In this document: in pieces, positions 47,906 through 53,028 of the stretch
Position numbering within the stretch: position 1 is the first letter of the stretch
Layout of the letters: every line of letters starts with the position of its first letter
NCBI GenBank assembly: GCA_947624215.1
Contig: CANQJJ010000003.1
Coordinates: forward strand, 1 to 64,000
DNA from: an uncultured Clostridia bacterium
GTDB taxonomy: Bacteria > Bacillota > Clostridia > Christensenellales > Borkfalkiaceae
Direction: 5' to 3'
DNA: 64,000 nt
Translations under genes and position numbers: made by a program
Notes under the pieces: model-generated
What the model was told of the DNA's origin: nothing
Databases searched by the model: none
Seen by the model: the letters and a program-made list of their open reading frames with translations, nothing else

Positions 47906-48192
47906 GGGGAACGACGCCCTTGCCACCGAGTGTATCTCCCCTCATACGAAGTCCGACTGCTTGGGAAAGAGACCAAGCATTCTAAATACGTCATGTTGAG
48001 CCTGTCGAAACATCACCTTGTTTATAATGCGGTGACCCTTCGACTTTGCTCAGGGTGACGTTATTGGAATGCCTTAATCGCTCACACGAAACTTGGTCGT
48101 AGCAAGATTCCTTCGCGGATGGGCAGTTCGCTCTCATTCATGCTCTGCTGGCTCAGAATGACGCTTCGATTGAGCTTGTTCGCTTACCCGAA

Positions 48193-48436
48193 ACCCTCAC
48201 CGCCGAAAGGGCATCGGCGGAGCTCCCCTTACAGGGGCGCCAAGGGTCGCTCAAACGGAGTCCGAGGAAAAGCTCCTCCTTGGGGAGGAGCTGTCACGTA
48301 GTGACTGAGGTGGGGATCACAACTGTTTCTTCCGCTTTTATATGGAACGACGGTCGGGTTTATAAGGAAGAGCGATCGTAGCCCCCACCCCCCTACCCCC
48401 CTCCCCAAGGAGGGGGTAACGCGCGGATTGGGCTTG
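48193..48436. repeat. 244-bp composite repeat, copy a
   Basis: Near-identical (a base or two different by eye) to 48570-48813, offset 377 bp. Confidence 0.85.
48263..48417 (-). repeat. Element J, copy 6
   Basis: Reverse orientation. The variable stem is GTCAC-GTA-GTGAC. Confidence 0.8.
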
Positions 48437-48569
48437 GGGGCAGATATGGTGCCCTCGTACGCAGTCCCGTGGTGGTAAGCAAAGCACCCTCGCTGTCCCT
48501 GTAAGGGAAAGTGGCGCACTGCTCTTGTGCGCCGAAAGGGTTTCTGCTCATTGATTTATGTGCATAAAA

Positions 48570-48813
48570 CCCCTCACCGCCGAAAGGGCGTCGGCGGAGC
48601 TCCCCTTACAGGGGCGCCAAGGGTCGCTCAAACGGAGTCCGAGGAAAAGCTCCTCCTTGGGGAGGAGCTGTCACGTAGTGACTGAGGTGGGGATCACAAC
48701 TGTTTCTTCCGCTTTTATATGGAACGACGGTCGGGTTTATAAGGAAGAGCGATCGTAGCCCCCACCCCCCTACCCCCCTCCCCAAGGAGGGGGTAACGCG
48801 CGGATTGGGCTTG
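48570..48813. repeat. 244-bp composite repeat, copy b
   Basis: Direct duplicate of 48193-48436, including a J element. Confidence 0.85.
48640..48794 (-). repeat. Element J, copy 7
   Basis: Reverse orientation, part of the 244-bp duplicate. Confidence 0.8.
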
Positions 48814-49567
48814 AGTGCGGTGGTGGTAAGCTGTCATACCGAAGCCCCATAAGGGGCTGAGTGTATCCCCTCAAACGAAGTCCGCGTTGTGGGAAACAGA
48901 CGCGCCTCTTGCTGTCCCTGTAAGGGAAAGTACCCCGAGGCCCTTGCGAGGGGGGAAAGGGTTTCTCCTCCTCATCCGCCCTACGGGCACCTTCCCCAAA
49001 AGGGAAGGCAAGGAGACGCTCACACGGAGTCCGTGTTGTGGTAAGCGCGTCATCCTGAGGCGGAATGATAGAACGGAGTCCAACGCGGCTGTCCCCGAAG
49101 GATCCCGAAGAACGAAGTCCGACTGTTTGATGAACAGACCATGCGCTATAATTACGTCATGCTGAACGTAGTTGAAGCATCACCTTGTTTATAATGCGGT
49201 GACCCTTCGACTTTGCTCAGGGTGACGTAATTGGAAATGCCTTAATCGCTCACACGGGCTTTGGCGTAGCAAGATTCCTTCGCGGATGAGCAGTTCGCTC
49301 AAATCCAAACCGTTACAGCTCAGAATGACGCGCGCGAGGCGCGCGGGGCGTATACACGGGCCTCGTCGCCAAGGGTCGCTTACACGGGCCCCGTCGCCAC
49401 CCCACCCCCCTACCCCCCTCCCATGGAGGGGGCATGTGCGGGATGAGCTTCTCTTCTCCCATGGAGGGGGCACGCGCAGATTGGGCTTGGGCGCCTCCCC
49501 TTACAGGGGCGCCAAGGGGTCGCTCTCTCGGGCTCGGGCGCCAAGGGGGAGACGTGTAGCGTGCGGA

Positions 49568-50347
49568 TCAGAGTACTTTGGCGAGGAAACTCTTGAGACG
49601 GTCGTCTTTGGGAGCGCCGAAGATCTCTTGGGGCGGGCCGTCCGCCACGATCTTCCCCCCGTCCATAAACAGCACCCGCGTCGAAACCTCCCGCGCAAAC
49701 CGCATCTCGTGGGTCACGACGATCATCGTCATCCCCTCGTCGGCCAGCTCCTTCATCAGCGAGAGCACTTCACCCACCATTTCCGGGTCCAGCGCCGAAG
49801 TCGGCTCGTCGAAGAGCATCACCTTGGGCCCCACGGCAAGGGCACGGACGATGGCGATGCGCTGCTTTTGGCCGCCCGAGAGCGTGGAGGGGTAGGCGTC
49901 TGCCTTGTCTTCCAGCCCGATGCGTGCGAGGAGCTTCATCGCGCGCGCCTTCTCCTCGGCCACGATCTGCTTCTTGGGCGTTTTCAGTTTCAGCTTCTTT
50001 CTCTCGCGGAGACGGGCGTCAACGGCGGCCAGCGTCACGTTTTTCAGCACCGTCAGGTGGGGGAACAGATTGAAGTGCTGGAAGACCATGCCCATCTGTC
50101 TGCGATACTCTTCGAGGTCTGTGTCCTGCGTCAGCTCCTTGCCCTGAAAGTAGACCGCCCCGCCCGTCGGCGTTTCAAGACGGTTGAGACACCTGAGAAA
50201 GGTAGATTTCCCGCTCCCCGAGGGCCCGATGACGACCACCTTCTCCCCCTCGAAGATCTCCACGTCGATGCCGTCCAGCACCATATTGTCCCCGAAGGAC
50301 TTTTTCAGCCCCGCCGTCCTGATCAAAGGCTCTTTGCTTTCCTGCAT
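49568..50347 (-). CDS. Amino-acid ABC transporter ATPase (GlnQ type)
   Basis: The 259-residue ATPase has Walker [11 protein letters not shown]-loop [17 protein letters not shown], signature [11 protein letters not shown], Walker [14 protein letters not shown] and H-loop VTHEM, all typical of polar amino acid importers. It has a slightly long insert ([16 protein letters not shown]) before the signature. Last gene of the operon; its start overlaps the permease gene by 25 bases. Confidence 0.93.
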
Positions 50348-51084
50348 TTTTTGCGGCCTCCCGTGATTTTGATGCCTGCGTTGCGGTCACTCCGCGAGAG
50401 CGCCTTCTCGATACATTTCTCGACGAGGGTGAGCGAATAGACCACGGCGAGATAGAGCACGGAGGCGAAGAGCAGGGGGAAGAGATAGTCGAAGGTGCGC
50501 GACTGGATGAGCCCCGGCACCTTGCCGAGCTCCAAAATGCCCACATACCCCGCGACGGAGGTCTCCTTGACAAGGGCGATGAACTCGTTGAAGAGGGCGG
50601 GGATGATGTTGCGGATGGCCTGCGGCAGGATGATCTTGAGCATCGTCTTGGCGTAAGAGAGCCCGAGCGAACGGCCTGCCTCCATCTGCCCCTCGTCAAT
50701 GGAACTCAGCCCCGCGCGCGCCACCTCCGCGACATAGGCCGCGCTGTTGAGCCCGAACGTGACCGCCCCCACGACGATGCCGTTCTTCACCGAGACGAGC
50801 ACGATGAAATACATGATGAAGAGCTGCAAGACGACGGGCGTGCCGCGGATGACCGTCACATAGAGATTGCTGAGGAAGGAGAGGACTTTGAGCTTGCCCG
50901 TCTTGGAGTGGGTATAGACGATCATGGCGAAGATGAAGCCGAGAAAGACGCCGATCGTCACCGCAAACAGCGAGATGAGCAGGGTGTTGCCGAGGCCCTG
51001 AAAGTATAATTGCCACCTGTTATCGACGAGAAACGCCGACCTGAATCTTTCGGCCAGCGTTTTCGCATTGAGAAGATAGAGCAT
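50323..51084 (-). CDS. Amino-acid ABC transporter permease (GlnP/HisM type)
   Basis: The 253-residue protein has five or so membrane segments and the EAA loop ([23 protein letters not shown]) of the HisMQ permease family. The upstream [12 protein letters not shown] and [10 protein letters not shown] motifs are also typical. It is translated 16 bases after the binding-protein gene and overlaps the ATPase gene. Confidence 0.92.
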
Positions 51085-51100: not shown

Positions 51101-52021
51101 TTAAATGTTTTTGATGAGCAGCTGTGCGGGGATCTTATCCATGAAGATGACGTCGATCTTTCCCGCTTGCAGGGCGGCGAGGGCGGCGGCGTACGTCTTG
51201 TAGCGGGTGATCTCCGTCTCCGCGCCGAGCTTGATGTTGACGGTCTCTTTGTCGTCGTCTTCGCCCACTTCGTAGCTGTATCCCTCCGCTTTGAGGGCGG
51301 CCGAGGCGATGAGGTCTCCGCTCGTGCCCTCCTGCACGCCGATCTTCAGCCCGCTGAGATCTTTGAGGTTCTGATAGTCCGCGTCCTCGGCGCACACGAT
51401 GGAGAGGGTGGAGGAGGAGTATACATTTGAGAAATCTACCTCCTGCTTGCGCTCCTCGTTGATGGTCAGCCCTGCTGCGGCGAGGGCCTTGCCGTCTGCG
51501 GCGTTGAGGTGGGAGATGATGCTGTCGAAGGCGACGTCGTGGATGACGAGCTTGCATTTGAGATTTTCGGCCACCTGGCAGGCAATGGCGACGTCGATGC
51601 CCTGCAAGGTATACGCGCCCTCTTCGGCGGTGCCGTCCGAGACGGGATAGCCGCTCGTGTAGACGAACTCATAGGGGGCAAAGCCGGACTCGGTGTACAT
51701 GTCGACCGTCTCGGTGTAGGCGTCGAGGTCCCAGCTGAGTTTGAGGCCCTGCGGGGCGTCATGGGAGCTGTTTTCATCGGCGAGCCGGGTGTAGTAGTCG
51801 AAATATTTGTCCATCGTGCCGTCTTGCACCCACTTATCGACAACGGTGTTGACGGCGTCGGTCATGGCAGTATCGCCCTTTTTGAGTGCGATGCCGAAGT
51901 CTTCCTGCAAAAGATCTTGCGCGTCGTGGGAGACATAGTTGCCCGCGCCGGCACAGGCGCCTGCGAAGATGCAAACGGAGACGAGGGCGGCGGCGAGGGG
52001 AAGCAGAACTGTTTTTTTCAT
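51101..52021 (-). CDS. Amino-acid-binding lipoprotein with permuted domain order
   Basis: The 306-residue lipoprotein (signal peptide, lipobox Cys23) is the solute-binding subunit of the operon. The order of parts is unusual. Residues 41-80 (DFGIALKKGDTAMTDAVNTV, then VQDGTMDKYFDYY) match the segment that normally ends family-3 binding proteins. Residues 104-306 then follow the standard N-to-middle order: FAPYEF, GIDVAIACQVAENL, FDSIISHL, NEERKQEVDFSNVY, LKIGVQEGTSGD, and end at GKIDVIFMDKIPAQLLI, where the missing final segment would follow. This reads as a circular permutation or as a trimmed tandem duplication. RBS AAGGAAGG; good promoter. Confidence 0.85.
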   Translation of the reverse strand: MKKTVLLPLAAALVSVCIFAGACAGAGNYVSHDAQDLLQEDFGIALKKGDTAMTDAVNTVVDKWVQDGTMDKYFDYYTRLADENSSHDAPQGLKLSWDLDAYTETVDMYTESGFAPYEFVYTSGYPVSDGTAEEGAYTLQGIDVAIACQVAENLKCKLVIHDVAFDSIISHLNAADGKALAAAGLTINEERKQEVDFSNVYSSSTLSIVCAEDADYQNLKDLSGLKIGVQEGTSGDLIASAALKAEGYSYEVGEDDDKETVNIKLGAETEITRYKTYAAALAALQAGKIDVIFMDKIPAQLLIKNI

Positions 52022-52194: not shown

Positions 52195-53028
52195 GGATGA
52201 GAGCGAGGGGCTGTGTGGGACGAATGCTTGGCGCCCCTGTAAGGGGAGCTGGCCCGCGGCCCTTTGCGGGACTGAGGGGTTGCGGGGGGCGACAGGGCCC
52301 GTGTAAACGTCCCGCGCGCTCCGCGCGCGTCATTCTGAGCCGATAGAGTATATATGAGAGCGAACTGCCCATCCGCGAAGAATCTTGCTACGACCAAGCC
52401 CGTGTGAGCGCTCAAAGCATTTCTAATTACGTCACCCTGAACGTAGTTGAAGGGTCACCGCAGTCTTAAAAATAAGGTGATGTTTACTTCGCCTACGGCT
52501 CGTGTCGTGCTTGGAATCACAAATAGAAGCCTCGCGCGTTCGACGGGGCTCAACATGACGTATTTAGAACACATGGTCTGATTATCACACAGTCGGACTT
52601 CGTTCTTCGGGATCCTTCGGGGACAGCCGTCACGGACTTCGTATCGTCATTACGGCTCAGGATGACGCGCTTACCACCACGATAATGCGGTGATGTTTCG
52701 ACGGGGCTCAACATGACGTGATTATAGCACATGGGTTGCTTGTCAACAGTCGGACTGCGTATGAGGGGATACACTCGCTACGCTCGGTATGACACGCTTA
52801 CCACAACACAGACTGAAACCCTTTCGGCGCACAAGGGCAGTGCGCCACTTTCCCTTACAGGGACAGCGAGAGGGTTTTGCGCTTACCACACCGCGGACTG
52901 CGTATGAGGGGATACACTCAGCCCCTTACGGGGCCTCGGTATGACAGCGTAGACCCATGCCTACGGCGCGGTATGAGCGAACGCGACATCCCCCTCTGGT
53001 ATAAAGGGTGCGCCCAAGGCCGAACAAG
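52195..53028. repeat. Intergenic repeat mosaic 11
   Basis: Contents: two-hairpin element with GGCCCGC-type arms (52226-52280), ATTCT/AGAAT (52330-52400), ACCCT/AGGGT (52430-52460), ATGTT/AACAT with TACTTCGC insert (52478-52562), ATCCT/AGGAT (52590-52672), ATGTT/AACAT (52690-52722), GGTATGAC (52764-52800), GGCGCAC element (52812-52876), another GGTATGAC-type unit (52906-52950). No gene is visible. An A/T-rich 52100-52190 stretch precedes it. Confidence 0.78.

Follow-up and report, generated by a model that had tools for sequence, protein, structure and literature searches.

The operon and its binding protein

The window, a 64,000-nucleotide stretch of contig from an uncultured Clostridia bacterium, carries on its reverse strand a three-gene operon for an amino-acid ABC importer, in which the ORF at 51101-52021(-) encodes a 306-residue lipoprotein that belongs to family 3 (SBP_bac_3) of the amino-acid binders. 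The permease ORF begins 16 nt past the end of this ORF and is in turn overlapped by the ATPase ORF, bearing out the coordinates, strand and otherwise ordinary gene order given in the initial annotation. The genes and the parts of the binding protein are as follows:

51956-52021, reverse strand: signal peptide, residues 1-22 (hydrophobic N-terminus, low pLDDT over residues 1-25, lipobox AGAC)
51953-51955, reverse strand: predicted lipid-anchor cysteine, Cys23 (invariant in 13 aligned permuted homologues)
51779-51937, reverse strand: transposed C-terminal segment, residues 29-81 (phmmer, profile, profile-profile comparison and AlphaFold2)
51710-51778, reverse strand: linker from the old C-terminus to the old N-terminus, residues 82-104, with the motif APQGLKLSWDL (alignment of relatives)
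51407-51709, reverse strand: lobe 1 core in canonical order, residues 105-205, with T110, F114, P116 and R191 of the amino-acid site (alignment and model)
51104-51406, reverse strand: lobe 2, residues 206-306 (profile match, model and structure alignment)
50323-51084, reverse strand: amino-acid ABC permease (BPD_transp_1, HEQRo_perm_3TM) of the polar-amino-acid type (PAAT), from Pfam-type domain matches
49568-50347, reverse strand: GlnQ-like ABC ATPase, from domain matches

Membership in the family is evident from both the operon, which pairs the binding protein with a PAAT permease and an ATPase as is usual for SBP_bac_3 proteins, and the Pfam model (PF00497), which scores 76.2 bits against a curated cut-off of 26.4. 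The Pfam match is confined to residues 135-215 (model positions 19-95), and because only the middle of the protein is scored in this way, its permutation is hidden from profile-based annotation. This is the only SBP_bac_3 match in the source genome, where no other family-3 binding protein was found. Residues T110, F114, P116, R191 and D295 are conserved among homologues; T110, F114, R191 and D295 correspond to established alpha-amino-acid-binding positions. Lobe 2 stops after the helix that follows Asp295, at the point where a canonical chain continues. A frameshift or a missed C-terminal segment near 51101, raised at the outset as a possible cause of this early end, is absent: the stop is clean, the permease begins 16 nt beyond it, and the binding proteins of five close relatives terminate at the matching position. 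The gene is under purifying selection: comparisons of same-genus genes give a dN/dS of 0.15-0.20 for the whole mature protein and of 0.13-0.17 for the moved segment.

The operon is flanked on both sides by long intergenic repeat clusters in inverted orientation (47932-49494 and 52227-52951). For 336 bp taken from the left cluster, about 100 matches occur across the genome, as mosaic pieces of 72-96% identity, and the repeat constitutes a dispersed family that occupies many intergenic spaces of the genome. Within the cluster lies a 260-nt direct repeat (48191-48450 and 48568-48827; 97% identity, 377 nt apart).

Order of the domain elements

The initial annotation had assigned residues 41-80 to the C-terminal segment of family-3 proteins and residues 104-306 to the remainder in normal order, and both assignments hold in comparison with the canonical binder AncQR (4zv1), against which phmmer returns three ordered but rotated pieces (query 138-239 on chain 31-132, 266-304 on 138-176 and 39-76 on 192-229). 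A profile of 22 permuted relatives resolves the same relationship into two pieces, given here in profile numbering, with positions 103-287 matching chain residues 6-176 and positions 25-80 matching residues 176-231 (i-E 5.6e-7); the two abut exactly, at the single chain residue 176. When 65 permuted N-terminal segments were compared as a profile with 63 canonical full-length proteins, only the last 57 columns were aligned (206-262 of 266), with a probability of 99 and an E value of 5e-18, far above chance. The body of every permuted member is missing a C-terminal segment of its own. All elements of one domain are thus present once, in rotated order and with the old termini joined, and the canonical chain order typical of SBP_bac_3 proteins is not kept, the C-terminal segment being placed N-terminally. 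A search of the PDB with the permuted profile gave canonical chains only and no full-length permuted match.

Structure prediction and comparison with canonical binders, the check proposed for the original reading, gave a confident AlphaFold2 model (13 sequences; pLDDT 87.1, pTM 0.83) with the two-lobed type II fold of the family. Blocks of ten residues across the moved segment average 81-98 and form the expected strand-hinge-helix-helix elements (last lobe-2 strand 29-33, hinge strand 40-47, lobe-1 helices 51-67 and 69-81), and after the linker the usual fold starts at residue 105. VIA-align superposes residues 100-306 of the model on ArgBP 24-194 (Z 17.6, 2.2 A, 169 residues aligned), and the C-terminal remainder of ArgBP (to about residue 233) falls outside the aligned range. 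Foldseek and VIA are sequential aligners that matched the body and left out residues 29-81, so that the three-dimensional equivalence of this segment with the canonical C-terminal segment is suggested by sequence profiles and predicted secondary structure. As judged from the concordant PDB, profile-profile and AlphaFold2 evidence, the protein is a true circular permutation, one of the two possibilities first raised, and belongs to a permuted subfamily within the homologous SBP_bac_3 family rather than to its canonical members.

Occurrence among relatives and competing explanations

Homologues with the same order, which the original reading had called for, are found in dozens of Clostridia genomes at identities from 71% down to about 27%. 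The five close relatives belong to the same bacterial family and are 55-71% identical to the protein (three from the same genus, G150, G123 and G009, at 66-71%; G069 and G058 at 55-64%), and many further genomes of this family match over the whole permuted order at 27-40% identity. Of 30 genes that we read, 24 are permuted and six canonical (L015, L017, L021, L024, L027 and L030). Across the class, about 38 of 391 genomes, drawn from many families and including a single-contig complete genome (G330), are matched by the permuted profile over its full length, and in a second collection of named records further permuted genes occur in MAGs of Clostridia, Oscillospiraceae and Ruminococcaceae. Among 299 genomes of the phylum, no full-length match to this permuted type (type 1 below) was found outside the class at E <= 1e-40. 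Permease and ATPase genes adjoin downstream in all 38 permuted loci checked, and in one locus (L022) the permuted binder and the permease form a single chain. Same-genus genomes often have no copy of the gene at all, and the gene is hence dispensable.

This distribution bears directly on the less favorable readings of the locus. The assembly is fragmented (87 contigs), and a chimera or frameshift in a canonical gene could in principle mimic a permutation; however, the same order recurs in dozens of independent assemblies, among them the single-contig G330, and the frame, the operon and a dN/dS well below 1 are those of an intact gene, leaving an artefact of this kind refuted by independent occurrence and exceedingly improbable. 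We give just as little credence to a coincidental match in which residues 41-80 would be part of an unrelated N-terminal extension: the single-sequence score is indeed modest (15 bits against AncQR), but the profile-profile match is strong and confined to the canonical C-terminus, and the permuted bodies uniformly lack the corresponding piece, which refutes this reading.

A tandem SBD-SBD protein trimmed at both ends, which would merely look permuted and might form a domain-swapped dimer, deserves somewhat more attention and is still very unlikely. Canonical tandem SBD-SBD-permease proteins do occur in relatives (L040 and L158), as do multi-unit arrays (L078 and L088), and the rotated match runs exactly across the domain junction of such a tandem (6h30; profile 44-286 on chain 187-401). 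Yet the protein is a complete unit with every element present once, its single-domain lipoprotein order has been kept stable over large divergence, and the monomer is modelled with confidence. Trimming of a tandem is compatible with permutation as a historical route to it, and a tandem ancestor is plausible; we infer that a duplication or fusion came first and that the ends were lost afterwards, giving the circular permutation. A direct tandem of two canonical SBP genes, an arrangement that could yield permutants, is seen in a MAG labelled Verrucomicrobia (L095:684-2255).

The related proteins have been cut at three sites, all in lobe 2 or at its edge. The type 1 cut opens the canonical loop '...DKxPAxxfvaaN-eGLKIL...', such that the permuted proteins end with the helix after 'DKxPA' and start with the next lobe-2 strand. 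In type 2, cut at hinge 1 and common in the class, the chain runs from the start of lobe 2 ('DDLxGxxIGVQxGTTGD') through the C-terminal segment into the N-terminal part, with its end at the first hinge ('QVIIVKK'); this order was read in L068, L143, L147, L149-L154, L157 and L159-L162, as permease fusions in L148, L155 and L156 and as permease-fused arrays of units in L078 and L088. The AlphaFold2 model of one type 2 protein (L068), made with four sequences only, is weak (pLDDT 70.9, pTM 0.55). Type 3, with its cut within lobe 2, is represented by L144-L146, which all come from a single other family of the phylum. The fetched loci, a number of them retrieved twice, were sorted into 64 of type 1, 17 of type 2, 3 of type 3 and 72 in canonical order.

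In a 78-gene tree inferred from a re-ordered alignment, the type 1 label requires 7 changes, at least 5 of which are forced by well-supported branches. A single origin or single clade of all type 1 genes was rejected (AU p=2.8e-7); the type 1 permutants do not form one clade, and gain and/or loss must therefore have recurred. A quick tree covering every type calls for 11 changes of type, but as its branches have modest support, the precise count of events is uncertain. The recurrence of the same rearrangement in dozens of related bacteria suggests that the family was re-cut several times in evolution.

One gene in canonical order (L036, 2920-3810) sits inside the clade of the 51101-52021 protein, to which it is 44% identical, and ends in a tail of 24 residues, compared with mostly 1-5 in canonical relatives (a few have longer tails, of low complexity or unrelated). 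This tail contains VPEGLKLSWNV, closely resembling the linker APQGLKLSWDL, and for most relatives 0 of 1000 shuffles were as good. The simplest reading of these sequences is that L036 probably descends from a permuted ancestor, went back to canonical order and retained the linker as a scar; the opposite direction, in which an ancestral C-terminal extension later became the linker of the permutants, may instead hold, given that the branch nesting L036 within the permutants has just 85/84 support. Together with this probable reversal, the cut sites incline us to the broader view that family-3 domains of Bacillota are topologically unstable, having been re-cut repeatedly, at three or more places within or beside lobe 2, and on at least one occasion restored to canonical order with the linker left as a scar, with the common effect of shifting the lipid anchor or the permease fusion point from lobe 1 to lobe 2.

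Tethering and relation to known binding proteins

The locus very probably encodes a substrate-binding lipoprotein that serves a polar-amino-acid ABC importer and has a circularly permuted Venus-flytrap domain. The linker of about 23 residues connects the old N- and C-termini, which both lie on lobe 1, and new termini have been opened in the lobe-2 loop that separates the helix following 'DKxPA' from the next strand. Such a protein would fold, hold an alpha-amino acid between its lobes, close and pass its ligand on to the permease, as canonical proteins of the GlnH/ArgBP type do, with the membrane tether running through lobe 2 instead of lobe 1. The conserved site residues, the fold and the operon make binding of an alpha-amino acid and feeding of the permease its most likely function, and the protein is presumably lipidated and presumably docks on the transporter. 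The initial annotation had the anchor brought next to a hinge-distal segment; the anchor has indeed moved, but from lobe 1 to the last lobe-2 strand, just before the hinge strand, which may affect how the protein docks on its transporter. Cys23 is five residues from this strand, whereas in canonical relatives the lipid anchor precedes the first lobe-1 strand. Between the lipid cysteine and the first conserved element, the median distance is 13 in permuted as well as canonical proteins, and it varies less among the permuted ones; the equal medians led us to reject the hypothesis that permutation simply lengthens the tether.

Canonical family-3 binders (GlnH/GlnBP, HisJ, LAO, ArgBP and AncQR) have in common with the protein the fold, the conserved amino-acid-site residues and the operon with a PAAT permease and ATPase, and differ in having their termini in lobe 1, not lobe 2, and in lacking the new linker. 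A literature search, mostly of papers available without subscription, returned no report of a permuted family-3 amino-acid binder. The nearest parallel is TpMglB-2 (Tp0684) of Treponema pallidum, a natural circular permutant of a tethered ABC-importer binding lipoprotein, designated 'Type Ic / Cluster Bc' and also present in Gram-positives, for which tethering as the driver of permutation was offered by its authors as speculation (PMC4990184). Our protein shares with it the natural permutation of a tethered ABC-importer binding lipoprotein; however, TpMglB-2 is not an amino-acid binder but a sugar-binding Type I/cluster B protein, of another SBP cluster and fold class. The 51101-52021 protein does not have the permuted sugar-binding fold, matches type II amino-acid binders, and is an analogue of the TpMglB-2-like proteins rather than a member. 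Glycine-betaine-binding proteins (2B4L, 1R9L and 1SW1, cited with the structure papers on OpuAC and ProX) are likewise presented by the CPSARST paper (PMC2395249) as circular permutants and are alike in being ABC-importer binding proteins related by natural permutation, but they bind quaternary amines and represent a deep split between subfamilies, in contrast to the recurrent switching within one family seen here. In GlnPQ-type tandem SBD-SBD-permease proteins (6h30), the stretch over the SBD1-SBD2 junction has the permuted order, making them the likely kind of ancestor, although their domains are canonical, two per chain and fused to a permease.

Earlier natural permutants of ABC binding proteins were known as isolated cases in other clusters, whereas here one large amino-acid-binding family presents three cut sites, several apparent origins, permease fusions and a probable scarred reversal beside canonical relatives in the same bacterial family. 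The permuted forms stand side by side with canonical relatives, and the routes of tandem duplication, fusion and end loss, as well as the tethering idea, are therefore testable by comparison; recurrent re-cutting in lobe 2 holds more interest than the permutant itself.
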